A DNA stretch of 64,000 nt from Ulota crispa. Taxonomy: Eukaryota > Streptophyta > Bryopsida > Orthotrichales > Orthotrichaceae. The stretch lies in assembly GCA_963920765.1 (NCBI GenBank), contig OY987246.1:9054501-9118500 (forward strand), written 5' to 3'. Below, in pieces: positions 3 to 63,660 of the stretch; positions within the stretch are counted from its first letter, which is position 1; every line of letters starts with the position of its first letter. The notes beneath the pieces were generated by a model. That model was not told the origin of the DNA and searched no databases. It saw only the letters and a program-made list of their open reading frames with translations. The translations under genes and the position numbers were made by a program.

Positions 3-2450
3 ATGTGCTCAGAATATGGCATTGGCTTACCAGGTTCAGAAGGAGGATATGTGCAAGCGGATGCCACCACACCGGTAGCAGGGCCGTCACCTTCTGGGAA
101 AGGAAAAGGGCCCGCTAAAGCAGCCGGTGGAGCTACCAAGGGTGCCAGGAAGGCTATACTGAAAGATACCAGCCCTGTCAACAGCGACGATGAAGGTGAC
201 ACCAAGACAAACGACGGACAGGGGCCTTCGAACAAGGGTGCCTCCAGAGTTGGCGGAGGAAAGGATGACGACGACGAGGAAGAGGAGAACATGGACCAGG
301 AAGAGCTCGGGAAGTACAACACTGTTGACCCTGACAAGATGCGGTGAGTGCAGTTTTCTCTACTACCGACCTCTCATTCCACGTGTACAATCTTCAATGT
401 TTCATCCATTGTGCTTTGAACATTGTAACTGAAGCTATAGGGGTTACTCTTTGATATTACTTGCTATGCAAAGTTTGTTGGATAAGAATTTAACTCTGTA
501 ACGGTTCATACGTGAAAATGAACTGTAGATCAGTCTCAGGATTTGATGCCCAAACATTCTCCATCCAACGCATCCATCAATATGGTTGGAACTGTAAACA
601 CTGTTCTAGAATTTGCTTTGCACTGCCTTGAAGCTGTCCACTCAGAAAAGCTAAGAATGCTGCTGTTTGTACAGAGTGGGGGGACAAAAAGATTGGGAAA
701 TCTTAGGCCACCATCCAACTCCAGTAATCCCGAATATGATTTTGACTCTTAGCTCAAGTGGGAGGAAACATTGCTAAGAAGCTAAAATCTTCAAATTTAA
801 CACTGCTAAAGTTCACAAATTTTCGAGTTGCAATTTGTTTTTGGTAGCAATCCTACAAAATTTAGGCAGTTTAAAGATGACTGCCAACTCCCCGTTTCCT
901 AGTCTTTTTGTCCCCCCACTGTACTGTACATTCAATCTGCTGTTTGTATATCCAAGAGTATGAATGTTAGACGGTTAATCTCAATGCACATTTTTCAAAG
1001 GTTGCACACTTTATTTGGCTGTGTCATATTATTTTTTCTATTGAAGCTTTGAATATATGTATCACTTTTCCACGTTTCACATGTTCAGGTCATTGTTTTC
1101 TTCTTGCTATCTGACGTCGCCAGTGTTTTGTCTCAAATGGTTTTTTGTGTGCAGAGCTGTGCTGGCAACCTTCACCCCTGAACAGATGAGTCGATATGAG
1201 TGCTATCGGCGTTCCGGGTTTCAACGTGCCAATATGCGACGTGTAAGTTTTTTTTGTCTTGTGCACTGAATGTTGGGTAGTGTGGACAGGAATAGGTGCA
1301 AATTTAATCAGAACAACTGTAGATTATCTTCTACTCAGTCTTTTCTTGAATTTTCCAAGGGGTTGCCATTTTCAGATGAACGTTTTGTTTAAAGTGTCTA
1401 TTTTAACGGTCTGCTTGTGCGTTGAGGGGGGTGCAGTTGCTTCAGAGTGTATCAGGTGCTCCAGTCTCGGTTCCCATGACTATCGTTATCTCTGGAATAG
1501 CCAAAATGTTCGTTGGGGAGCTCGTGGAGATAGGTATGCACGACTTTGAAATATGTTTTTTGCTCCCGCTCTTTCCGATTATTCATTTTTTTGAGTTCGT
1601 CTCATATCATGCTGGGTTCATTTATTCTCCCTCTATTCAGGTGTTCCATAACTTTAAGGAATAATTTCATGGATACCCCTGAAGTTTGCCATATTTTCAT
1701 AGATACCTCTGCTTTTTCAGAAATTTCACAAATACCTTTGCACCAAAATTTTCAGGCGTTTGTTTTGTTGTGCATGTCACTTCCTTCTCCCTTTGTGCGC
1801 ACACTACTTCTTTCTTGTTATGTGTGTGCACAAAGGAAGATGGGAAGTGGCATGCACAACAAAACGAACACCTGAAAATTTTGGTCCAGGGGTATTTGTG
1901 AAATTTCTGAAAAAGCAGGGGTATCTATGAAAATATAGCAAACTTCAGGGGTATCCATGAAATTTTCCCTAACTTCAATAGTATTGTTTGTGATTCACTT
2001 CCTTTAATTCCTTGGTGTTACGAAGTTAATGTGATTTTTTAGCTGCTTGTCATTTGTCTTTAACAAAGGTGATTGATTGGGAAAGTATCTTAACCCTTTG
2101 AGTGTCTAATTAAAGCCAGTTTTGGCCATGTAGGCACATATCAATTATCTGATGGCCATAACTGGAGGATATGATTATTTCTTGGTTTATAATGATACTT
2201 TTTGTGTTACCTCCTTCAAAGGTTCCTAAATGATTCATTTCAAAAACTTCTACAGGACCAGCCACGTTTGGTCACGGTGAAGTTGTTCAACACTGATCTG
2301 TGAACTACTTCTTTGGTTTCAGGACGGATAGTGATGACCGAGAGAAACGAGACTGGTCCAATTCGCCCTACGCACGTTCGTGAAGCCTATCGACGACTGA
2401 AGCTTGAGGGTAAAGTTCCTCTACGTAGCAGGCCTCGTCTCTTTCGGTAG
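3..2450 (+). CDS. TAF11: TFIID subunit TAF11, four exons
   Basis: TAF11 is a histone-fold subunit of the general transcription factor TFIID; it pairs with TAF13 and acts in the nucleus at RNA polymerase II promoters. Exons read as 3-343, 1155-1242, 1437-1533 and 2323-2450, with donors GTGAGT, GTAAGT and GTATGC and AG acceptors. The joined frame stays open for 217 residues, close to the usual plant length of about 210, so the ATG at 3 may be the true start, although the window edge leaves this open. The N-terminal third is low complexity (Gly/Lys/Ala, then an Asp/Glu run). The C-terminal two thirds carry the conserved fold: FTPEQMSRYE, RRSGFQR, the GIAKMFVGELVE helix and the closing REAYRRLKLEGKVP segment ending in RLFR. 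Intron 3 holds a foldback transposon (1658-1969). The family assignment is firm; the exact start is not. Confidence 0.92.
1658..1969. mobile_element. Foldback MITE, family A copy 1, Mutator-like
   Basis: A 312-bp near-perfect inverted repeat inside TAF11 intron 3. It starts GGAATAATTTCATGG and ends CCATGAAATTTTCCC. The flanking 9-mers are TAACTTTAA (1649-1657) and TAACTTCAA (1970-1978), a 9-bp duplication with one mismatch, as expected for Mutator-like elements. Each arm holds three boxes of the type ATACCCCT about 30 bp apart. The middle contains no real coding sequence. Confidence 0.85.
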
Positions 2451-3031
2451 TGAAAGTTGCCTGAAGCTCATTTTTTTTTTTTTCTGTCAATTTGAAGTAA
2501 TACCTCTACATCCAACAACCTGGACCAGATGTCAAAGACTATGAAGACGGTATTTTGCCATGGAGCATTTTTTGAACAAAAGCTAGACTCTTCAACTCAA
2601 GTTCTATCTGCTTGTCTAAGTGGAGCATACTTATTAGGAGAATATCTGTGCTAGTATCTTTGGCTTCGTTTAGCAAGATGTGGACTGTGTTGTCAGTGAA
2701 AGCGGTGGGTTTCAATTTAGCAGAACTTGGGACGTATCTCGGAATCGGTTTATTAGCGTGGTGAGCTTTATTGACTTCATTGCAGAATTTGAGGTTTATT
2801 AAATGTAAAAAGTTGGAGTGGAGAACTGAGGGATAAAACATTCAAGGAAATGGAAAATATACTCTTTCCCTTAGCTGCTCATAGTTTTATTTTTTGGTGG
2901 TGCTGAGAGACACATGGAGTGTGGATATATACTGATCACTGCAGTAAGGTCAAACTATCTATCTGGTACGGATGTATGCCTGCTTTGAATGGGTAGCATG
3001 GTTGGAGTGGTCTACATAGAACTACAGTAGA
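2451..3031. other. TAF11 3' flank
   Basis: Presumed 3' untranslated region and intergenic DNA after the TAF11 stop codon. No ORF with codon structure or homology was seen. Confidence 0.5.
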
Positions 3032-3262
3032 ACTCCTCTAAAATGATATGGTTGGGACCCCAAAAACTAGATTAGTTTAAGTAAGTTATTAGTTAATTAA
3101 TTACCTTGAGTTTAGTGCCGGGATACCACCAAAGAATATTACTACTATTGAATTAATTGCTTTGGTTTATGACTGACGTATGGTCTGACATTGAGATTTG
3201 TGTTATACATTAGTTTACAAAGCATATTAGCTTACAGGATATTAGCTTAGAGTTCTACTGTA
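3032..3262. repeat. Small MITE with TACAGTAGAACTC ends
   Basis: About 231 bp bounded by TACAGTAGAACTC on the left and its complement GAGTTCTACTGTA on the right. The interior is AT-rich and rich in TTAGTTTA/AATTAATT motifs. The end sequence resembles common plant hAT-type MITEs, but I could not define an 8-bp target duplication, so the superfamily is uncertain. Confidence 0.55.
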
Positions 3263-5727
3263 GTTTGGTATACTGCATGTATGTGTTTGTGATGCCAGGA
3301 TGGAAAAGCTTAGATTCTTTCACCTGGCAGAAAATGAACGAGTTTAGAAATTTGCCTCCAGAAGATTGAATTTGGGACTTTTGAATTCGTATTTGGATTC
3401 AAAGACGCTGGTTTAATTAAAAATTTGCCAAAGGAAATTAAATTGACCTACTACTAAAAAAACGTAGTTTCTTACTTTGCGTGAACTCTTCCACCGTGGC
3501 CTCACAAACCTGTATGTGCAGTATTAAGCCTATAAAACAATGACTGGCACCCTTCCTTTGGTGCATTAAGATATAATCGGTATTAATATGGGATCTTTAC
3601 ATACTTGTCCAAAGGTAAATATTTTGCCCTCGTAATGCTCTTAATGTTAAGAAACAAGGTAAAATTGAAAGCATGCAATGGACATTTGCAAGCCAAACAG
3701 AGTGCAAATAGTATTTTGAATTTGCTTGCAATTTTAATGGCAATATTGGTATCATGATATATGCAAAATATATTGGTTCCATGCATTAAACACCAAAGCC
3801 AACTTAGCCATGCTGCTTTTATACTATCATAATTATCTACTTCACGTGACAATTGAAATTATGTGTTTGTACAAGACTAATTTGTTTATGATGACATTTC
3901 AATTCATTGCAAGATTGGCTTAGAGAATATAGCTACATGATTATAACTTGTTAGTTTGCTAATCTTATTGTTGTTGTGGAAACTTTAGTACATGATTGGT
4001 GATTTGGTGTCACTAAAGTGACTTGGTGTGATCAAATTTCAAATGAACCAAAGTTGTAGTATTACATCAACCTCTTTGAAGCAAAATAATTAATATTATC
4101 CACCTATTTGCAAAGGGATCTTTCATATAATTAAGTCATTAATATGATTGTTCCTTTTGTCATTTTTTGCACATCACCCTTCTATGAATTCACTATAATT
4201 GCTCACCTAAAAGCATTAAAGAACTTTGAGTTGTTGAAATCTAGTTTTGATTACAACAATATCTAAATTTTTACAATTATAAATAGTAACATGCACAAAT
4301 GATGTCAAATGCATATCATTAAACTAGGCACTTTGAGTATTGTTTGGAAGCTTCTAAGACATAGCATTCATTGTATTGCGGTAGGAAGTTGCTAAAATTT
4401 GGAAGCTCAAGGATGAGCAATTCATATAAATTTGAAGTGGATTGCTAAGTACAAACCCTACTTACTTGTTCTACTATTACATCTACGCTTTCCACTCAAA
4501 CAATTTCAACCTCAAAATGTAATCCAAATTATGAATCTTCTCAAATTTCTTGCACTCCACAATCACTTGACTTTCTAATGAAATCAAGCAAATGAGAATT
4601 GACAAAAATTCCAAAAATTGCGTCTTTTGATCACACATGTTTACAAACTTGACAAACTTTCAAGATTCTCAAAACCTAATGTTGAGGATTGTTTAGTTCA
4701 AAATTAATACCTTAAAGTTTCTTTGTCTAATTGCAAGCATCCATGCTAGTGCTAGAATGAGAAAATGCATAAAGTACATACTCATTTGTTGTCTTTGCAT
4801 TTTACAATTTTGTGACCAACACGGAAGTTTGGCCTAATAATTTAGAGGCTTAAAGATTTTTTTCAATTACAATTAAATACATCTATCATTCTTTCATTAT
4901 TTCTATAATTTTATCTCAAAGTTTCAAGATGATCATGAATAAACCTACATAACTTTTAGATTCTGATAGAAATTAACCTTGAAATGAATTCTGAAATTTA
5001 TATCTCTTATTTCCTTCTAAAAATTTAGAATTTTTGTATATCATTTATATTTTGATATGTTTTATTGATTTTAATACAAAATACAACAACAGTGATGTAT
5101 CAACTAAATTCGATTTGAAATATGGGAATACAAACATTTTAAACGACGGTGCAAGCTAAATCTTACCTTTTATATTTGTGAATCTTTAAGTGGATTTGAA
5201 CATCTTTTTTTGCAAAAATCCAAGAGTGTCCAATTATTGTTTCGTTGAACAAAATAATAAACTAGACTTCGATACATTACATTTACGAGTGACAAGATGA
5301 ACATTCTGGTAAATGTGTCTATGAAAAAAAAATTGAAGAATTTTGTATTAGTTAGTGAGATGTAAGACCAAAGTTCAAATAAAATTATAGTTCTTGAAAA
5401 ATTTCACAGTTTTTGCATTAATGATATGAATTTTGTAATTAGGTTAACCATTAAAATATAAAAATGCCTAATTTATGTCATATATGCAAAAAAATAAAGA
5501 CGCTATTTAATGAATGAGATTTATCATTTGTTGGACCTTGTTAAAATTGATTTTAAAAAATGATTGGAAACAAAGTCAAACCTTTGAGTTTCATAAAGTC
5601 TTTGATTGTGGAGTACTAGTCGGAGATGTTCTTATAACTTTCATACAATAACCCTTAGAAAAAGAGATGTAAGTATTTGTAAAATATCACAAAATTAAAC
5701 CTAAGAAACAATAAATAATAGTGGATT
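3263..5727. other. AT-rich intergenic DNA, no gene seen
   Basis: About 2.5 kb of strongly AT-rich sequence with only short, low-complexity ORFs. I found no recognisable exon, RNA gene or clear inverted repeat. Confidence 0.5.
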
Positions 5728-5731
5728 TTAA

Positions 5732-6646
5732 TCCCTGAAGGACCAAACAAAGTTTTTACCAAAAACTCTTCAAAACTGCCTTTTTCAGAGCATCAACCAA
5801 ATTTGAAAATAAAAACATTTTTATGCATATGTAATCTTAGGATCTTGTAGAAGAATGATTTCAGAAGATGTGGAAAAAAATTCAAAGCTTTTCACCACGT
5901 GGATTGGAAGTTAGAATGGTTTGAATATTCAAAAATGTCTTGTGAAAAACCGGGTAGTTACTTTTCAAAAGGTGAAATTCCTAAGGAAAAAAAGACATGT
6001 GGGTGGTGCTTCTCCAAATTTTCTATCCCACCTTAGTAAAGTACATGTCAAAAATGTTTCAAATAATTTGGAGTTGTATAACATATGGAAAAAAATTAGT
6101 AAGTAAAAAGAAGTAAAGAATGATTCAAAACACTAAATTGTTAAGAATTTAATTATGGAAATGAAAAATGCCAGTCCCAATGGTCATAATGTTGTCATAA
6201 AAAATATTCATTCTTTGGTTTTATTTCTTTTTCCAAAATGTTGAAAATTGAGTAAAAATAAGGACTTCAAAGTTCATTTTGGAGTAGAGAATCCATAATT
6301 GCCTGCAAACAAAAAATCCTCATAACTTTCATCTTGTTGATCCAAATGGAATGATTTGAAGCTTCCTACATTCAAATAAATCTCCTAAACCAATTTAAAA
6401 ATTTTGTTTTTGAAAGAATTGATTTTTGAGAATTTGCCTAGGCTGCTTGATGAACGTAAAAAACAACATATTAGGCCATAACTTTTTACTCATAATTCCA
6501 AATGTCATGAAATTTAGTGCATATGAAAGATAAACCTTGTCCCCACATTTTTATTAAAATTTCAGCCTAAAATATAAAAAGCTCCAATCGCATGTACTTG
6601 CCCAAAATTACTATGTTTCTAAAAAAGGGGTCTAGTCCTTTGGGGG
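5732..6646 (+). mobile_element. TTAA-flanked piggyBac-like element, family PB1 copy 1
   Basis: A 915-bp non-coding element with TTAA on both sides (5728-5731 and 6647-6650). The left end TCCCTGAAGGACCAAAC matches the complement of the right end, CCCCCAAAGGACTAGAC, at most positions. The interior aligns over long stretches with the copies at 54808-55707 (same orientation) and 59031-59955 (opposite), for example the stretch around 6100-6330. It has no transposase and would be non-autonomous. The family call rests on the TTAA target and the CCC terminus. Confidence 0.75.
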
Positions 6647-6650
6647 TTAA

Positions 6651-7338: not shown

Positions 7339-7357
7339 TTAATTCTATGTATTTTAA

Positions 7358-7583
7358 CCCTTAAATGTCCCAAGGGCATAGTAGATATGTTGCCGTGTAT
7401 TTGACATTTGCTACCAATAAGAAATTTTAACTTGGGATCTCAAATAGTTCACTTGAGCCGCGTTTATCTTTATTCCAACTCCTTTGTTGATCTCAGATGT
7501 AGTCAAGGTGTGGATCCATTCCAAATACAAGAAAAATACGCCATATTATATTGGTTGCAACGAGCCTTTCTAACATTTAAGGG
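7358..7583. mobile_element. TTAA-flanked short element with CCCTTAAATGT ends
   Basis: A 226-bp element bounded by a perfect 11-bp inverted terminal repeat (CCCTTAAATGT) and by TTAA on both sides (7354-7357, 7584-7587). It shares its right TTAA with the next candidate element. Non-coding. Confidence 0.65.
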
Positions 7584-7587
7584 TTAA

Positions 7588-7949
7588 CCCTTAAATGCTT
7601 GGGCCCATAGCTGTGCCCTGCCTTGCATTGTATAGTTACAGTGCTCAGGCTGTGCCCAGCCTGTAGTATTGCTGCAAAAAGTGGGAAAAGTCAATAGTGC
7701 ATGCTGCCCACATGAAATTTGTAAGAGGGCAAGAAAGGACTTATCAATCATGATTGTGAATGTTCTCACTAATTTCAATTTTGAAAAACATGAGAACTTT
7801 CAATCAATCCAATTTTGACATTCCGTGGTGAAGAACCTTGCAATGACCACTTTTTTAAAAAATTGAATACAAAAAGTTTTTTTTTCCAACCCCAAATTGT
7901 TTTTTTTTGCACCCCAAGGACGATAATCGTCTTCTTCGACCTGTAGGGG
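7588..7949. mobile_element. Possible second TTAA-flanked element
   Basis: Starts CCCTTAAATGCTTGGGCCC directly after the TTAA at 7584-7587 and ends CTGTAGGGG before the TTAA at 7950-7953. The inverted match is short (CCCYTA), so the right boundary is tentative. Part of the interior resembles the duplicated segment at 14421-14720 (shared AAAAGTCAATAGTGCATG). Confidence 0.4.
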
Positions 7950-8299
7950 TTAAAGGCGAGAATCACTTGTAAAATGTATATGTCAAACAAATGGGCGTGA
8001 CAAGTGTAAGTTTTCCATTTTATGCATACGATGCACCCATACGATGCACAGAGCTTCTCGATAGATGAACGGAAGATGAATGTCATCCAGAATTCTATCA
8101 TCTCTCTCACAAGCCAATGCATCGCCACTGCTCCCAGCGCTTCACCGCGCACTCAATCCTCTTCCGGAGCTTCACCTCCAAACACCAACCTGCGTGCAGA
8201 TTGCCAAACATTCTTCACAGACTTCTCAAATTGCTTCGAACTGTGAGCGTGCATCACCAGCTGTGGCAAGTTCGACGCTCTTGACGGAGCTGCAGAGCC
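7950..8299 (+). promoter_or_regulatory. SufC gene 5' region
   Basis: About 350 bp between the last TTAA-flanked element and the SufC start codon; it must hold the promoter and 5' untranslated leader. I see no strong TATA box. GC content rises toward the start codon from about 8100. Confidence 0.4.
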
Positions 8300-40972: not shown

Positions 40973-41000
40973 ACTACTACAATTCTCTTCTATTTCTTAA

Positions 41001-41637
41001 CCCCTAAATGCCCAAGCCCTATTTGAGTTTCTTGGACTTTCCATGAAACTAAACAATCAATCAACCTTTTCATGAATTCCATCAATTTTTTTCAATTGTA
41101 ACCGTACAAATTTAAGCTAAACATGTTAGAGATTACATGGGAAAAGAAAAGAAAACAATATCACTTATAGTTTGAAAGATTATAATGTTTGAAGGGTGTT
41201 AAAATTGCAAAAGTGACTGAAAGTCTTCCAATCCTCATTTCACATGTCAAATCCAAAAAGTTGGTCACCATAAAAATATGAGGTTTAAGGTCATTACATG
41301 TTTAACTTGAATCAATTTACGGTTTTGAAAATCTGCTCTTACATTGTTTTTAAATGGATTTCTAATGTGAATTTTTCTCCAAGCTCTAGTGTATTTGAGG
41401 CTCATTTTCAAGATCTTCCCAAACTAGAAAACTTAAGATTGCAGTGGATACCCTTGTACAAAATCTCAAGTAGAAAAATCATCAACTTTTATTTTCAAAA
41501 TCAGATTTTTGACATTGAAAGTAAACTTCAAAACAAACTTATATTGAAAAAAATTCTGAAAATAATGATTTGATAAGATTTTATTCATCTTCAAAATTTC
41601 CTTGCAACCCAAATCTGGTCGCTTGGGCATTTAGGGG
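41001..41637 (-). mobile_element. TTAA-flanked piggyBac-like element, family PB2 copy 2
   Basis: A 637-bp element with perfect inverted ends CCCCTAAATGCCCAAGC and its complement, flanked by TTAA on both sides (40997-41000, 41638-41641). The interior aligns with 31602-32247 in inverted orientation over most of its length. No coding sequence. Confidence 0.85.
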
Positions 41638-41641
41638 TTAA

Positions 41642-48290: not shown

Positions 48291-48838
48291 AATAAAAAGA
48301 CCATGTCTTACCCAATCACAAATCGCCACCTACACAATTTTTGTTCTCATATATTAACTTATGTGTCTAATTTGGGTGCAATTATATCTTGTTTGGGTGC
48401 AAGAGTGTCTACTTTAAGTTTAATTTTAGGTGTCGCTAAACGGCTAAGGTAGGAGGATCATGAAGGGACCATCTAAAGGCTAAAACTAAATTTTGGGGAG
48501 TTGAAACTTCTTGAACTATTTTTCCGTAATTTTTCCTTAAAAGACAAGAAGAATTGACATCTGACCCAAGTTGTTTCATTTTTTTGGAGCTTTGTGGAAT
48601 TAGTTATAAAATTTTGAAGTGAAAAGGCCATAGGGCTCTATAACGGTTCACCTTCTCAAATGTACATTGCTTGTACATTTTTGAAACCTATGAAAATTAG
48701 CATGTACACATGAAATACATCTGAGAAGGTGGACCATTTTTGAGCTTGAGCAAAATATGAGCCTCCTACCTTAGTGTTGCATTTGGGTGCTCCTAACTTA
48801 TAGACATGAAAGTGCATAGAGCTGAGCTTGTGACGTAC

Positions 48839-49653
48839 CTTAAGAGGCAAGTCGTGAGCGCGCTTCCCATCCTTGGGCAAGTCGTGAGTGCGGTTTCCAT
48901 CCTTAGGCAAGTCGTGAGTGCGCTTCCCATCCTTGGGCAAGTCGTGAGCGCGCTTCCCATCCTTGGGCAAATCATGAGCGCGCTTCCCATCCTTGGGCAA
49001 GTCGTGAGCGCGATTCCTATCCTTGGGCAAGTCTTGAGAGCGCTTCCCATCCTTGGGCAAGTCGTGAGCGCGGTTTCCATCCTTGGGCAAGTCGTGAGTG
49101 CGCTTCCTATCCTTGGGCAAATCGTGAGCGCGGTTCCCATCCTTGGGCAAGTCGTGAGCGCGCTTCCCATCCTTGGGCAAGTCGTGAGCGCGGTTCCCAT
49201 CATTGGGCAAGTCGTGAGCGCGCTTCTCATCCTTGGGAAAGTTCTGAGCGCGCTTCCATTCCTCGAGAAGCTCAAATACTTGCTGGAGCGTAAGGTTCAT
49301 GTCGTCCGCTATTCTGAGATTCGCGATGGAGATAGTGTCCGCCACGAACTGACGTTGCGCTTTCAATTCTAGCACTCTCTCCGCCGAGCTGCGTGCAAGG
49401 AATCCCGAGTTCTTGCTAGACCACTCCTTCAGCTTCGTTTTGGCTTCGTCCAGTCTTTGTCGTACCATTGTCCTCACTTCCTTTGACGACGAGATGCGCA
49501 ACGACCTGTTTTCTTCTAAATAGGTCATAAATTCTTGCAACTCCCTCGATTCTGCATCAGTTCCTTTCACTTGCTGAAACCTCGTCCACAGATTCGTCGC
49601 CGCCTGTTGCAGTCCGCTTGCCAACATTCCAAGTAGCAGTCCGCTTGCCATCC
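48839..49653 (-). CDS. First coding exon of unrecognised protein with 14 decapeptide repeats
   Basis: On the - strand an AG acceptor (TTTGCAG) precedes the ATG at 49651 by one base. The reading frame runs 271 codons to a strong donor, AAG/GTACGT, at 48839. Residues 1 to about 130 are helical and charged with heptad-like leucines (starts MASGLLLGMLASGLQQAATN), possibly a four-helix bundle or coiled coil. This is followed by fourteen 10-residue units of the type KRAHDLPKDG, alternating K/N at position 1. The 30-bp unit is highly conserved at the DNA level. The protein should continue into further exons (candidate 46262-46447). I do not recognise the family. An RPW8/HeLo-like helical bundle is a guess from helix pattern only. 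Confidence 0.6.
48840..49260 (-). repeat. 30-bp coding minisatellite, 14 units
   Basis: Head-to-tail 30-bp units (+ strand AAGTCGTGAGCGCGCTTCCC then ATCCTTGGGC) within the exon above. The two main variants are CGCTTCCC and CGGTTTCC/CGGTTCCC, giving Lys or Asn at the first position. Units toward the 5' end of the gene (49200-49260) are the most diverged. Because the unit is a multiple of three, several other frames are also open. Confidence 0.95.
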
Positions 49654-50165
49654 TGCAAATGACAAGGTCCGTGTATACCCCTAGAAATCCATCAGTTCCA
49701 GCTTCGTTTCCCTATTTAAACAGCCTTCATGTCGGAATTACATATTCAAGCAGAGTACATGATTCTGCTACCGTAGTTATGTGTGAAACTGCTAAAATTT
49801 GAGAAAATTAGGATACCTGAGGGTAAAGAAACAGACCTCGCCGAGTCAAGTAATCGTCACAGTTTCGATCGAGTTCAAGCGATCTTCAGTTGGCTGCACG
49901 AGAACGCCGGCCTCTGCGTCCACGCTTGACCAGTCCGGAGGTTGTTCTAGAGAGAACAAGAGCTGAAACAGATGTTAGTGTCCGATCGCACACAGATAAA
50001 ATAAGGAGTGAGTGAGCCAGGGGAATTCAAGTTTGTTGGGGTCTTTCTCTCTCTCTCACTGAGAGTGAAGTTATTGTTGAGAGAGATGTGGTGGTAAGCT
50101 TATTAGTTATTACACATGATTATTAAACTCGTTGCGCGTCGGGGTGCGACGATATTTAAAAGGGC
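49654..50165 (-). promoter_or_regulatory. Leader intron, leader exon and promoter of repeat-protein gene
   Basis: A leader intron runs from the donor GCGAG/GTCTGT near 49853 to the acceptor at 49654. TTTAAATAT on the - strand at about 50150-50158 is a likely TATA box. A CT/GA microsatellite at about 50044-50060 lies in the leader. Inferred from motif order only. Confidence 0.45.
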
Positions 50166-54803: not shown

Positions 54804-54807
54804 TTAA

Positions 54808-55707
54808 CCCATGAAGGACCAGGCCCTTTTCTCTATGAAAAACACTGAAAACTACCACTTTTGGGGATGAAAGGAATGGTAATTTGTTTTTATTTTTTTT
54901 GAACTCTAACCATAAGATCTTGCTCTAAACAATATGAGGTGCTTGGGAAAAAAATGAGCTTATTCCAAATAAAAAGGAGTGAGATATTTACATGTGAAGT
55001 GAAGGGGAAAAAAAAAATTGTACAACCCAAAAATTTCATAAGCCGTTGACCACTCCTATATCAAAAATTTGCTCTACGCAAAAATGAGGTTTTTCTTCCC
55101 ATGAAGAAGACCAAGTTTGGTATGTGTGAGAGAATTTTCAAGTCAATACATGCAAAAAAATAGTAAGTAAAAGAAGTAGAGAATGAGTCAAAACACTAAA
55201 TTATTAAGAATTTAATTATTAAAATGAAAAATGCAAATCTCAACAATTATAATATTGTGATAAACAATCTACATCCTTTGGTTTTGTTTTTTTTTCCAAA
55301 ATAATGGAAATTGAGTAAAATAAAAGACTTCAAAGTTTATTTTAGAGTAGAGAATCTAGAACTACCCGCAAACAAAAACTACTCATAACTTTCATCTCAT
55401 CTATCAAAAGTGAATGATTCAAAGCTCCCCACTTCTATATAAGTCCAAAGAACCTATTTCAGACTTTTATTTGAAAAAAATGAAATTTTTAAAGAAGATT
55501 TTGGCTGCTCGGGGAGCAGCGTTTTTTAGATTTTCATGCATAACTTCTTTAATAAATGTCGGAATGAAGAAAAAATTACATTCCCATGTAGGTCTTTGAA
55601 TTCCTCACCTTCAATAAAAGTTTTGGAAAATCACACAAAGTAGTTTAGCCATAGGTACATGCCTGAAATCCCATTTGTCCCCTAAAGGGACATTAGTCCT
55701 TTAGGGG
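54808..55707 (+). mobile_element. TTAA-flanked piggyBac-like element, family PB1 copy 2
   Basis: A 900-bp element with TTAA on both sides (54804-54807, 55708-55711). Ends are CCCATGAAGGACCA and the complement of CCCCTAAAGGACTA. Inside the right end lies the hairpin TGTCCCCTAAAGGGACA. The interior aligns collinearly with 5732-6646. No transposase. Confidence 0.85.
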
Positions 55708-56145
55708 TTAAATTAGGCAAGATTGCTAAAGTTTGAGCAGGGAGCAATGAGTGTTGAGCATTGAGCGGTGGGCAGACTTTCATGAAAATTTGAAAATTGG
55801 AAATCAAATTTTAGGGAGTTTCATATGATTGTAAGTAGACAAAAGTGATCACTATATGAATAAAAATTTGGATGATGTTTGAAATTCATCCATTGAAACA
55901 AACAAATGAAAAATCAGATTGGATGAATGAAAACTAAAATGGATGAATGTAAATGAAAAGAGGATAACATATATGATACAAACTTGTTTAGAAATTACAA
56001 AAATATATCAATGTAGCATATTTAAAAATAGAGAATATAAAATTTCATAGATACTCATTTTTTTTCAATAAAAAAAGATTAAGTAAAAGATTTCTTGCAT
56101 TAGCAACAACTTCAAAAAAAAAGGATCAAATACAAATTTACATTA

Positions 56146-56848
56146 ACCCCTAAAGGACCAAGCCCCCTTTTGGGGGACAAATGGGATTTTGGGCATGTAC
56201 CTACGGCTAAACTACTTTGCGTGATTTTTTGAAAATTTTATGGATGATGGGGAATTCAAAGATTTACGTGAGCATCTAAATTTTTCTTCATTCTGATGTT
56301 TATTGAAGACATTAAAAATGAATTTATGCACAACGGGCAAGATCGGGCAGCCCAAAAACATATTTAAAAATTGCATCTATATATATATGAAATAGGTTCT
56401 TTAGACTTATATATACATAGGGAGCTTTAAATCATTCAATTTTGATTATGAGATGAAAGTTATGAAAAGTATTTGTTTGTAGGTAGGTTTGGTTACTCTC
56501 AAAATCACACCTACCCGCAAACAAAAACTTCTCATAACTTTCATCTCATCAATCAAAATTGAATGATTCAAAGTTCCCTATGTATACATGTCTAAAGAAT
56601 GTATTTCATATTTTTATTTTTTTTAAAGCAATTTTTAAATAAGTTTTTGAGCTGCCCAATCTTGCCTGTTTTTGGAAATTTATATTTAACTTCTTCAATA
56701 AATGTCAAAATGAAGAAAAATTTAGATGCCCACATAGATATTTGAATTCCACACCTTCAATAAATGTTTCAAAAAATCACAAAACGTATATTAGTTGTAG
56801 GTACCAAAATCCATTTGTCCCCCAAGGGGACAGTTGGACCTTTAGGGG
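56146..56848. mobile_element. TTAA-flanked foldback derivative, family PB1 copy 3
   Basis: A 703-bp element with TTAA on both sides (56142-56145, 56849-56852). Ends are CCCCTAAAGGACCAA and its near complement. Unlike the other PB1 copies the whole element is a palindrome. Both about 350-bp arms correspond to the right half of copy 2 (markers GGCATGTACCTA and ACCCGCAAACAAAAACTTCT), as if one half had been copied in inverted orientation. Confidence 0.88.
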
Positions 56849-56852
56849 TTAA

Positions 56853-57856
56853 ACCTTTCATGTATCATTGCTATAATTTTGTTATACTCTCAATTTGAAT
56901 GAACTCAAAGTCCTTAATGTTTAATTTGCAATTTCGAGCACATTCAAATTTTAAAGATACAAGTCTACAATGTCAACAATGAAATAATATTATAAGCCCT
57001 ATAAAAAGAGACTTAAGTTTATATCTCAAATTCTAAAATTAAAGTTCACTTTGAATTGCTGCTTTAACACTTTTGAGTGTTAATATAATGTTTCTTTTAA
57101 CAAATTGAATACATTTTCAAATAATTTTTGAACAAATATTTTATCAAAAAACTAATTGAGGTGAAAGCTTCAAATCCTAATAACCTTGTAGAATTATTAA
57201 AAACATAAGATTGACTATGATTTTATTCATTTGGAAATTTATCACATTAAAAGTACTAGAGCATCTTCTCACTCTTTACTAAATAAGAAAAATGCAAAGA
57301 AATTTAAATTGAATTTTCATTGTGAATGATTATAGAAATTCAAACATATCAATAATAGCAAAAATAAATAAAAGTTTACAAAAACTTTGCAAGCACTTCA
57401 AGGCATTTTTGAAACCTAAGGGGGCGTTTGGCATGGCCACAGTATGATTCCATGAAAAGTGGGCTAAAGTTGTGAATTAAATACCTTAAAGAAGGAGTTT
57501 ATGCCCTTTAATTCATATTTGTTGAAAGTGACCCTATATTAATCAAAATTGTTGAAACCACAATATTTGGCCAATTTTCCCCTTTTTATCCCGTCCTCTA
57601 AAGCTAGCTAAAATCTAAAACTTCACTATTCACATTTTGAAAATGTTCTCTATGTGAAAGCTAAAAATTAATGAAATAACAACTTTATATGAGAACTTTC
57701 TTGAAGCTAGCTATTCATTCTAAGTTTTTAGTATGTGTTTCTCAAATCAAAATGTTAAGACTTTTTTAGAAATGAGACCAAGTTTTATTCAAAGACAATT
57801 TAAAAATTAAGAATAAAAAAAGCAAAAACAAATGGTACCAAAGCCTCTCCAAATTA
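56853..57856. other. AT-rich intergenic DNA
   Basis: About 1 kb. No gene or clear repeat supported. Confidence 0.45.
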
Positions 57857-60610
57857 TATCATTGACTTTTATAGTAATTATTTCAAGAGGATTTTATTTT
57901 GACAACTATGATTTTGACAACTGTGTGTTAAGATGGTGTGCATAGAATCTTAAATATTGTTGGTTTCCTGTGCTTTTACAACACAAATCTTTTTTACATT
58001 GGGCACGTTAAGAGCAACATTTTTTGTTGTGCAAAATAGAGTAGTGGCCTTTTGGGACGTACTTGGAACCTAGATGGGATATATGAGGGTTCAACTAATT
58101 TGTGTTTTGAATAGAGTTTCATTTTCATTGGCTGCAGAAGAAAATTTATTTCTTGTTTTTTGTTTTCTTTGTATCCAAATTATTATTTTTTTGCTTTTTA
58201 CACATTTGGTTTAGTGTCATAGGTCCCCTCTCAAAATCCAAGAGGTCTACTTTTGCTCGTTACAAGTTTTGTAAAGAGCCCTCTTGGAATCTGAGAGGGC
58301 TTCTTAAATTAATATTATTATTACTATTATTTAGTTATTTTTCATTTTTTCTCCCCTTTTTGATTTTGTTTTTTTATTATGGATTTTGTTTTTGTGTTTT
58401 AGGACCCTTTTCGGAGCCCAAGAGGCCTATTTGTGGTGGTTTTGGATTCCGTAAAGGGCTCCTTGGATTCCAAGGAGCATTTTGTTTTTGTGTTCTAGGA
58501 CCCTTTTTGGAAATTGAGAGGCCTACTTGAGGTGGTTATGGATTCCGTAAAGGCCTCCTCGGATTCCGCGTAGCACCTCTAAAAATAGATTCTTATCTTT
58601 TCTTTTCCAATTTTCTTGCTTAAGAACAAGATTTTTTTTTTTTTCATGGATTTTGTTTTTATGTGTGAGGACCCTTTCTGGAACCCAAGAGGCCTAGTTG
58701 TGCACGTTATGGATTTTGTAAAGAAGTCGTAAAATTTGTTAATTGTACAATTCATGAAAGCTCAACAAAATTTTGGATATTGAATAAGTAATTTTGTTGT
58801 TGTTGCTAGAAAATAGCTATAATGACCTTTTTAGAGTAAAAATTGTCAAATTTGTCTATTTTTTGCCTAGTAAATGCAATCATTACAATAAATTGTGCAG
58901 TCCACAAATTTTATGACTTCTTTACAAAATCCATAATGTGCACAAGTAGGCCTCCTAGGATCCAAAAAGGGTCTTCAAATAGAAAAACAAAATCCAAAAA
59001 AAAAAAAAAAAAAAAAAAACTTGTTTTTAACCCCTAAAGGACCAATGTCCCTTTGGGGGACAAGTTGGACTTTGGGCATGTATCTATGGCTAAACTACTT
59101 TGTGTGATTTTTTGAAACTTTTATTGAAGGTGGGCAATTCAAAGATCTATGTGGGCATCTAATTTTTTCTTCATTTTGACATTTGATGAAGAAGTTATGC
59201 ACAAATTTATGAAAAATTGGGGAGGATTGCTTGCCTGGGCAGCCCAAAAACTTCTTTAAAATTTGTCTTTTTTTAAAATTGAAAACTGAAATTGGCTCTT
59301 CAGATTTATCTTATAGGTGAGAAGCTTTGAATCATTCAATTTCAATCAATGAGATAAAAATTATGATTTTTTGTTTGCGGGTAGTTATGGATTCTCTACT
59401 CTACAATAAACTTTGAAATCCTTTATTTTACTCAATTTCCAATACTTTGGAAAAAAATTAAACCAAAGAAAGTAGAGTTTTTATCACAATATTATAACCG
59501 TTGGGATTTGTATTTTTCATTTCAATAATTAAATTGTTAACAATTTAGTGTTTTGACTCATTCTCTACTTCTTTTTACTTACCATTTTTTCCCATGTGTT
59601 GTATAGTTACAATTGATTTGAAAATTCTTCCACACATACTTAACTTGATCTCCTACATGGAAAAAAAAGCGCAACTTTGGGTAGAGCAATTTTTTTGTTA
59701 TAAGAGTGGTCAAAGGCTTTTGAAATTTTTGGGCAGCATGGAAAAAATCTCTTTTTTTCACCTTAGATGTAAATATTTTACTCCTTTCCATCTAGACTCA
59801 ATTGATTTTTTTCCCATAAATACCTCTTCTAGTCTGGGGCAAGATCCAACGGTTGGATTTCCTAAAACAAAACATAAAATCCTTCTTTACTAAACCTCCT
59901 AGAAGTGGCAATTTTTGGTGATTTTCACAATAAAAAGGACTTGGTCCTTTAGGAGTTAAGTAATAAAATTGGAAAAAAAAAAAAAAAAAACGCAATTTTT
60001 AGAAGTGTTCCTTGGAATATGAGGAGGCCTTTACATAATCCACAACCACCACAAGTAGGCCTCTTGGGTTCCGAAAAGGGTCTTAAAACACAAAAACAAA
60101 ATCCATAATAAAAAAACAAAATCAAAAAGAGGAGAAAAAATGAAAAATAACTAAATAATAGTAATAATAATATTAATTTAAGAAGCCCTCTCAGATTCCA
60201 AGAGGGCTCTTTACAAAATCTGTAACGAGCAAAAGTAGACCTCTTGGATTTTGAGAGGGGACCTATGACACTAAACCAAATGTGTAAAAAGCAAAAAAAT
60301 AATAATTTGGATACAAAGAAAACAAAAAACAAGAAATCCAATGAAAATGAAACTCTGTTCAAAACACAAATTAGTTGAACCCTCATATATCCCACCCAGG
60401 TTCCAAGTACGTCCCAAAAGGCCACTACTCTATTTTGCACAACAAAAAATATTGCTCTTAACGTGCCCAATGTAAAAAAGATTTGTGTTGTAAAAGCATA
60501 TGAAACCAACAATGTTTAAGATTCTATGCACACCACCTTAACACATAGTTGTCAAAATCATAGTTGTCAAAATAAAATCCTCTTGAAATAATTACTATAA
60601 AAGTAAATGA
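57857..60610. mobile_element. Giant foldback element, nested and cut by other transposons
   Basis: A palindrome with arms 57857 to about 58770 and about 58885-60610 around a loop of about 110 bp. Each arm carries repeats of a roughly 100-bp module with landmarks GGACCC..CCAAGAGGCCTA and TGGATT..GTAAAG, two of them duplicated only in the left arm. The right arm is interrupted by a TTAA-flanked element (59031-59955). The right arm ends exactly where a long terminal repeat begins. Long ORFs in both arms are Phe/Leu-rich readings of T-rich DNA and not genes. Confidence 0.85.
59031..59955 (-). mobile_element. TTAA-flanked piggyBac-like element, family PB1 copy 4
   Basis: A 925-bp element with TTAA on both sides (59027-59030, 59956-59959). 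Ends are CCCCTAAAGGACCAA and the complement of CTCCTAAAGGACCAA. The subterminal hairpin TGTCCCTTTGGGGGACA is at the left. The interior aligns in inverted orientation with copies 1 and 2. It sits in the right arm of the giant foldback. The left arm preserves the uninterrupted site, with one TTAA, at 58620-58623. Confidence 0.92.
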
Positions 60611-60930
60611 TGTCTTTTCTGGCATTTACTGAATTTGGAGAAATTTAGATGGACATTGTTAACTTAGAGTTTTGTAGAAAGTAACATCATAAGCAAACAA
60701 TAGTTATGTTACGATACAAGATTAAGAGTCGACATTCCTTTCCTATTTTGAGATCATAACCTAATATAGAAACAAATACTAAAAGACGCAAACGTGACAT
60801 TGAAAGTATTCCATTGTATTAAGCAAAATGTCAAGTGAGGAACAAATCTCTTCACTTGGTTTAAGAAGGAAAAAGGAAGGATAACCAACCTCTAACCAAC
60901 GTAACCGTCATTACAAACTAGTTTGTAACA
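60611..60930 (-). repeat. 3' long terminal repeat of chromovirus
   Basis: On the - strand it begins TGTTACAAACTAG directly after the purine tract and ends ..AAAAGACA where the giant foldback arm resumes. TG...CA borders, about 320 bp. The adjacent 5-mer AATGA (60606-60610) would be one half of the target duplication; the other end lies beyond the window. Confidence 0.75.
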
Positions 60931-61415: not shown

Positions 61416-62526
61416 TTATAATTGTACTCTGCGATCATAGTTGCGTTTAGCGTCCTCTTCTGCAATTTTTATCATGACCTTAAGTTCTTTGTAGACTTGT
61501 TGTAAGTGTTGCATTTGGTCTTCCGCCGCAGGCACTGTAGATGTGGTTGGTGTAGAAACTGAAAATGCCGGATGATAACCATAAGTGGCATAGAAAAGAG
61601 AGAACCCTGTTGCAGAATGACTTGTGTTGTTATACGCAAATTCTGCTATTGAGAGGAAATTGGCCCAATCATCTTGCCGGGTTGTAGTGAAAGTTTGAAG
61701 AAATTGCTCAAGCACTTGATTTACCTTTTCGGTTTGCCCGTCCAAATGAAGATGAAAAGCCGTGGTTGGAGATGGCCAAATCCTAAAGAGTTCGCAAAGT
61801 CTTCTCATGAATTTGAAGACAAAAATGGCCCATGATTCAAAATTACCTCCTCTTGTATGCCATGAAGCTTCCAAATATTATGTAGATATAATGAAACGGT
61901 CTCGTTGGAGGTAACCGTTTCCTTTATAGAAATAAAGTGGCATAGTTTTGTGTTTTTATCGACCACCACCATGATAAAGTCATGTCCACTGCTATTTGGT
62001 AATTTTACTATGAAATCGGTAGAAATTCTTTTCCACGGTGCATGATCAGCCGGAATAGATTGCATTAGTCCATATCTAGGATGGTGAGTTGATTTTGACC
62101 GTTGACACAAGTCACATTCCTCAACGTACCGATAAACATAGCGGCGTAATGTGGGCCAATAAAAAATTTGGCTAACCAAATCCAAAGTTTTAGCTCTCCC
62201 TTGGTGTCCCGCGGCTGGTGCATCATCCCGAAATTGCAAAATTTGCCGCTTGAATTCCTCATCGCCTGGTACATATATCAAATTCTTAAAGCAAAGGATT
62301 CCATCATCCAACGTATATCCTTGAAGTCGTCGGCGTATATTTCGGAAAAGTTGCTTGGAATTGTCTTTGAAAAATGACAATAGTGGTTGTAGTGTGGCAT
62401 CCTCTTGCAACACTGTCTTAAGTTGTTCTATAATCTGTACATCCATCCATACTGGTTTATGAGACTCAAACGCAGCTAATTGTAGTAAGGGTCGATTCTC
62501 TTTATTTTGTCTCTTAGTGACATCCA
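61416..62526 (-). pseudogene. Integrase core, frameshifted
   Basis: The zinc-finger half has its His and Cys ligands in place (HQGRAKTLDLV, CDLCQRS). The first catalytic Asp is present in STDFIVKLP. The second conserved Asp, normally in a SDRG context, is replaced (VILNHGP). A frameshift lies at about 61805-61874. The region of the catalytic Glu (DGQTEKVNQVLE) follows in the other frame. Both changes would abolish integration. Confidence 0.88.
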
Positions 62527-63660
62527 CTCATCTAGAAAGAGTATCTGTCCTTCCATTTAGCGATCCCGCCCGGTGGTGAATTTCAAAATTAAAAGCAGAT
62601 AGGAATTCAAATCATTGAGTTTGACGTCAGTTTAACTGTTTTGTAGTAAAAAAATATTCCAAATTTTTGTGGTCCAAGAATATCCAGGTTTGATGCGGTG
62701 ATCCTTCCAAATATACCCGCCAGTCTTGAAACGCCAAAATTATACTTAAGAGCTCCTTATCATAAATATCATAGTTTTGTTCTGCTAGAGACATCTTTGA
62801 ACTACAGAACGCACAAGGGTGGAGATGCCCATCATCCCCGTGCTGCGAAAGAATAGCTCATGTTGCCACATCGAATGCGTCCGCCTCTACAATGAAGGGT
62901 CGTTCAAAATTAGGGTGGAGTAATACCGATGCTTGGAGAAATCTTGATCGAAGTTCTATGAAAGCCCGGTCTACTTCTATGGTCCATTCAAATTTTTTAT
63001 CATTTTTTGTCAGCATGATAAGGGGAACGGCAATTCTAAAATAATCACATATAAAATGTTGATAAAAATTGGTAAAGCCAAAGAATAATTGCACTTCCTT
63101 CACGGTTTTTGGTGTGGGCCAATCCTTAATGGTTTGAACTTTATTCTGGCACATTTCCAATCCTTTAGCAGACATCACCATTCCTAAAAACTCAACGGAT
63201 TGACAATGAAACTGATACTTTGATTCCTTAGCATAAAATCCATGTTTCTCTAATTGTTAAAGAACTTCCCGCACGATTCATACATGTTCTTCCAGATCTT
63301 TTGAAAAAATGAGGATGTCGTCCAAATATATTACTACGGAAATGTCCAATAGATCTCCAAAAATCTCTTGCATGTTAGATTGAAATTGGGTAGGCGCATT
63401 GGTTAATCAAAAAAGCATCACTAAATACTTGAACAACCCATACCGTGTTTTGAATGTCGTTTTGAACTCATGTCCCAATGCCATTTGTACTCGGTGGTAC
63501 ACCTGTCTTATATCCAGCTTAGTGAAAATCTTTGCTCCCACCAACCGATCTGTGAGCTCCGGAATAAAGGGTAATGCGTAGCGATTTCGGATTGTAACTT
63601 TATTCAAATTTTGATAATCTACGCAAACTCTGATGGAACCATCTTTCTACTTGGCAAATA
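62527..63660 (-). pseudogene. Reverse transcriptase and RNase H, broken
   Basis: Reverse transcriptase motifs are visible: [23 protein letters not shown], and the catalytic YLDD near 63313-63345. The connection region FFGFTNFYQHFI and RNase H landmarks (YDKELLSI, then a diverged HKNL) follow. Several in-frame stops occur, for example at about 63404 and 62856. The active-site Asp pair is kept, but the ORF is not. Confidence 0.88.

Follow-up and report, generated by a model that had tools for sequence, protein, structure and literature searches.

A TTAA-flanked MITE of probable piggyBac type faces its own empty site in a foldback of Ulota crispa and belongs to a family with thousands of ends

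Main finding

A non-coding element of 925 bp, found in a window of 64,000 nucleotides from Ulota crispa contig OY987246.1, is very probably a non-autonomous transposon (MITE) of the piggyBac superfamily that entered the right arm of a foldback at a TTAA. The assignment was made because the TTAA is duplicated, an empty site is present, and a PF13843 transposase is encoded in TTAA-bounded copies with related termini. TTAA stands on both sides of the element and once in the partner arm, the family as a whole shows a 4-bp duplication and has thousands of ends, and piggyBac transposase genes lie in elements with related termini. These results support the original prediction of a piggyBac-type TTAA insertion, and the predicted 925 bp between two TTAA tetramers were exact to the base.

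The empty site in the foldback

The features of the foldback and of the element are as follows, in window coordinates.

57846-58720, plus strand: left foldback arm; without the element, 721 of the 765 columns aligned with the right arm are identical
58620-58623, no strand: single TTAA of the left arm, the unoccupied target site, from alignment to the right-arm flanks and direct reading
58904-59026, minus strand: inner right arm, including an A-run ahead of the element; 88% pairing with the left arm over 58904-59011
59027-59030, plus strand: left TTAA, target site duplication, read directly
59031-59955, plus strand: non-coding element (MITE), very probably piggyBac-type, 925 bp, TTAA either side
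59031-59045, plus strand: left terminal inverted repeat CCCCTAAAGGACCAA, 14 of 15 bases matching the other end
59941-59955, minus strand: right terminal inverted repeat, complement CTCCTAAAGGACCAA, from comparison of the ends
59956-59959, plus strand: right TTAA, target site duplication, read directly
59960-60611, minus strand: outer part of the right arm, pairing with the left arm in two segments

The arm alignment confirmed the foldback, which had been called giant, a word too strong for a span of only about 2.8 kb with the element included. The outer right arm paired with the left arm at 93% (60003-60611 with 57858-58482) and at 81% (59956-60102 with 58479-58623). When the right-arm flanks were joined with both TTAAs and aligned to the complement of the left arm, a 4-base gap opened at the junction; joined with one TTAA they matched without a gap at the junction, at 81% over 286 columns, and gaps fell only in the A-run and further out. 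The empty site claimed for the opposite arm was thereby recovered as a single TTAA through which the alignment is continuous. The arms between 57846 and 60611 contain tandem units of about 97 bp, and relatives of the arm sequence occur genome-wide, several of them head-to-head (for example C5:24942855 on the plus and 24943284 on the minus strand); the arm sequence is a separate repeat family. No stop-to-stop frame of 150 amino acids was present within the 925-bp element.

In the proposed history the inverted repeat came first. A transposase of the piggyBac type, encoded at another place in the genome, would then have put the element into a TTAA of the right arm, duplicating the TTAA in this step, and the left arm would have kept its unoccupied site. 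The reverse history, in which both arms were once filled and the left arm lost its element, would make the empty site an excision site. PiggyBac excises precisely, and in a single pair of arms gain and loss look alike. A comparison of 58500-58720 with the genome gave 133 matches, dozens of which, many in tandem, crossed the TTAA position uninterrupted. Since any interrupted copy would show up as separate fragments, the result establishes no more than that the empty state is widespread. The uninterrupted relatives nonetheless seem to favour, if weakly, a gain in the right arm, and we consider loss from the left arm unlikely. The right arm thus probably gained the element.

Family size and related elements

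The 14-mer end TTAACCCCTAAAGG occurred exactly 15,411 times in the 275-Mb genome (7,719 forward and 7,692 reverse), and its reversed control once. With one left and one right end per element, this would correspond to at least about 7,700 elements, more if mutated ends are counted. In the window, a 16-base end pattern with up to 3 mismatches gave 15 matches compared to 0.65 expected from shuffles, and six full elements could be paired, the 59031-59955 element and the following five.

5728-6650, plus strand: related TTAA-flanked element, 915 bp between TTAAs, from end-pattern matches and pairing
7354-7953, plus strand: TTAA-flanked element, 600 bp with TTAAs, with similar ends and an interior without a match to the others
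40997-41641, plus strand: element of 645 bp including the TTAA on either side, ends CCCCTAAATGCCC, interior unmatched to others in the window
54804-55711, minus strand: element of the same family as 59031-59955, 77% identical over the whole length, inverted
56143-56852, no strand: TTAA-flanked element, an imperfect palindrome (80%) over its whole length, with an empty site in L010:1-365

The 925-bp element had 9,181 first-look candidates in the genome, of which 40 were scored, namely the element itself and 39 others at 85-89%. Nearly all of the latter were full-length relatives, 38 of the 39 reaching from query position 11 or less to 932 or more and one covering 65-933. With the closest relative at 89% among the 40 scored of 9,181, the 59031-59955 copy appears not to be a fresh one, unless a closer relative sits among the unscored candidates.

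Ends and lengths were surveyed in a 264-kb sample comprising the window and 20 stretches of 10 kb on C1 (L001-L008 left out), from which no density was taken since the C1 stretches were chosen for holding the end motif. In this motif-selected sample, TTAA preceded 104 of 127 ends that had been found without requiring it, and common element lengths were about 920, 640 and 240 bp. Elements were mostly about 0.6-0.95 kb long, with some of 0.22-0.24 kb. The consensus end over 146 TTAA-CCCYT sites was CCCYTAAAGG(A/C)CCA, in which CCCYT was imposed by the search pattern.

In L014:1487-3059 two elements (1487-2414 and 2419-3059) lie back to back with one TTAA between them that is common to both, as expected if one element entered the TTAA border of the other. 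The base just outside the TTAA, read towards the element, was C in 37 of 90 cases, T in 24, G in 17 and A in 12; the excess of C may not be a target preference, because overlapping pairs and back-to-back elements were included. Runs of N were present in L020 near 7600-8060 and in L021 near 5875-6207. Within the window, a frame with an Integrase_H2C2 domain (E 3.7e-16) on the minus strand at 61808-62527 is a retrotransposon remnant, and the frame at 48659-49711 had no match in the protein database.

Length of the target site duplication

Twelve elements were picked by eye from 93 candidate end pairs for comparison with empty sites. For nine of the twelve, a relative outside the element's own flanks continued across the junction and carried a single 4-mer there, in place of the two that frame the element. 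This 4-mer was TTAA in four cases (window 56147-56848, window 59031-59955, L018 4243-5194 and L027 3581-4513), with AAAA at the junction in two weaker matches of the L018 element, and a 4-mer other than TTAA for five (L013, L021, L019, L024 and L010). The site entered by L019 4183-4764 has an uninterrupted relative within the window at 5728-6131. The remaining three (L028 7738-8267, L025 3905-5584 and L021 1214-2177) had no usable row, as their matches overlapped their own flanks or ran fewer than 40 bases past the junction. These relatives are paralogues and not alleles, and the five without TTAA may differ as diverged paralogues, which weakens the test and does not break it. The comparison bears out the predicted duplication of TTAA on insertion, and the single 4-mer at the junction of the relatives speaks against TTAA belonging to the element ends.

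At one empty site, TTAA targets alone cannot separate duplications of 2, 3 and 4 bp, and an element of the Tc1/mariner or PIF/Harbinger type that duplicates TA or TTA/TAA with a strong preference for TTAA would acquire a 4-bp look from target and end together. Ends with altered flanks bear on this reading. Flanks altered at positions 1 through 4 gave exact counts of 654, 679, 449 and 595 compared to 15,411 for TTAA, so that the four positions vary about equally (2.8-4.2% each) and the outer bases about as much as the inner ones. In the part of C1 covered by all four lists (322 listed ends), convergent pairs 150-1200 bp apart were collected. Thirteen of them were altered on both sides, and eight of these shared the same altered 4-mer where about one was expected (chance 0.091 per pair, binomial P 4e-6). 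The matching 4-mers were TTAG and CTAA (three pairs each) and TTAT and GTAA (one each), all changed at position 1 or 4. TTAG, CTAA and GTAA are among the variant piggyBac duplications in animals named in a passage of PMC10813416. Divergent pairs, taken as a control, numbered zero, from which it follows only that such neighbours seldom arise by chance.

The other five of the 13 pairs were mismatched, two of them as mirror images. These mirror-image flanks, TTAG/CTAA and TTAT/ATAA at C1:16651906-16652824 and C1:36270978-36271888, may reflect chance or be the trace of a joining step.

The duplicated unit is four bases, and a duplication of another length is not what the eight matching pairs record. 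With the 4-mer duplicated as a unit in these eight of 13 pairs, PIF/Harbinger (Tourist) with its 3-bp TTA/TAA duplication and Tc1/mariner (Stowaway) with its 2-bp TA duplication were set aside on duplication length, and a TA- or TTA/TAA-duplicating element in disguise is regarded as very improbable.

A piggyBac transposase in the genome

The original prediction had proposed a search of the genome for a piggyBac transposase. Of 528 candidates for the piggyBac transposase domain PF13843 (DDE_Tnp_1_7), 116 were scored and yielded 120 matches, with a best E of 1.3e-73; 14 control genomes yielded none. Stops were contained in 110 of the 120 matches and absent from 10. Nine frames from L029, L031, L032, L034, L039, L041 and L042 all matched PF13843 and no other Pfam domain. 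The L042 frame matched piggyBac (6x67, E 4e-20) and piggyBat (9c0f, E 6e-17) in the PDB and had 16 homologues. The aspartates of VDE/CDE, DNFF/DNYF and GVDxxDQ, among which we take the catalytic ones to be, were aligned in L034, L039 and the homologues, while L042 has GVN at the place of the third and its first two align to 6x67.

Two transposase-bearing copies, A (L043+L029) and B (L044+L038), are about 5.0 kb long and 90.5% identical over 5,029 columns. Their match starts with TTAA in A and with TTCA in B, and in both copies it stops a single base past a TTAA. The ends of copy A are CCCCTCATCGCC and CCCTTCATTGCC, with CCCCT on the left and CCCTT on the right. A pattern for its right end, allowing up to 1 mismatch, was found at 10 places (2 forward and 8 reverse); the left end was not among them and was found by reading 3 kb further. 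Upstream of its transposase frame, copy A has about 2.4 kb (about 1976-4400) in which all frames are short. At other loci the nearest downstream end was TTAA with CCCTTTAGCGACCA (L042), CCCTTGCATGACCA (L041) or CCCTTCACCGCC (L034), assigned to the transposase by nearness. For L042, a candidate left end next to a nearby MITE was dropped, since chance could account for its agreement in 9 of 14 bases.

The MITE end consensus resembles the ends at the transposase loci in having G at position 10 and C at position 12. No transposase copy with CCCCTAAAGG ends was seen in the 14 loci read of 116 scored, for 10 of which the flanks covered were limited to 1.5 kb either way. The predicted transposase is present in TTAA-bounded elements with related termini; the specific ends predicted for it were not encountered in these loci. 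Around the 12 best transposase loci, TTAACCCCTAAA was matched three times when at most 2 mismatches were allowed, each time with 2 mismatches and in two of the loci altogether. The further end sequence of the MITE family was absent from all three matches, and the elements extend past the 1.5 kb read. Among the 30 rows shown there was no clear interior common to the MITEs and the 5-kb copies, the best being 23 bases (E 6e-4).

PiggyBac inverted repeats are described as starting with CC[C/T]T in the part of PMC2872659 consulted. In the family studied here the fourth base departed from this motif in 112 of 146 sites, which have C (CCCC), and was T in 34; CCCCT is also what the transposase-bearing copy A has at its left end. 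Kolobok transposons likewise have a TTAA-specific 4-bp duplication, and their termini are given as 5'-RR ... YY-3' (both from a passage of PMC9587614). The ends of the element begin CC and CT in place of these termini, and elements with similar ends contain a piggyBac transposase; Kolobok was set aside on the absent termini and is considered very improbable. The piggyBac transposases of this genome, or recent relatives of them, probably moved the MITE family, presumably by cut and paste.

Comparison with known systems

The element shares with the piggyBac superfamily the 4-bp TTAA duplication, inverted repeats starting with CCC and, in larger elements of the genome, a transposase with aligned aspartates. 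It differs in that it lacks coding capacity and in that most ends of its family are CCCCT, and the two fully delimited transposase copies here are about 5 kb long and contain stops. A close parallel is the coral CMITE, which according to the passages of PMC2872659 is also non-coding, with TTAA duplication, repeats starting with CC and piggyBac in the same genomes, and for which an allele without the element is shown. The coral elements are about 100 bp long with 8 plus 129 full copies, whereas those described here are longer, have thousands of ends and occur in a plant.

The original prediction held piggyBac elements to be hardly documented in land plants, which is roughly fair and does not hold as an absolute. 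The C-fern repeat table has a PiggyBac row (1,230 and 122,417, 0.00%; PMC6890710), and a plant MITE review counts PiggyBac among the angiosperm MITE superfamilies (PMC10004981). In both the name is applied to plant repeats as it is here, in passages that do not include an analysis of duplication, ends or transposase. In PMC10619864 both occurrences of the word were "piggybacking". Among the open-licence papers listed we found no piggyBac account for mosses, liverworts or hornworts, a weak absence, and no description of a comparable piggyBac MITE amplification in any plant. A MITE study of 207 plant genomes including four bryophytes reports the usual plant superfamilies, and its text, as far as retrieved, is without TTAA or piggyBac (PMC12550479).

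The mechanism and the family are already known, and what is new is the copy number in a plant. The genome contains a LEAFY domain (E 1.2e-27), which assigns it to the streptophytes. There is about an even chance that piggyBac is a leading DNA transposon in this plant lineage, perhaps a bryophyte one, in which many transposase copies would have raised a number of MITE families to close to ten thousand copies. If piggyBac MITEs number thousands in a plant, classifications such as that of the 207 genomes may misfile or miss them. With its built-in empty sites, altered targets and transposase copies, this genome offers material for the study of target choice by piggyBac in plants and of its history there.
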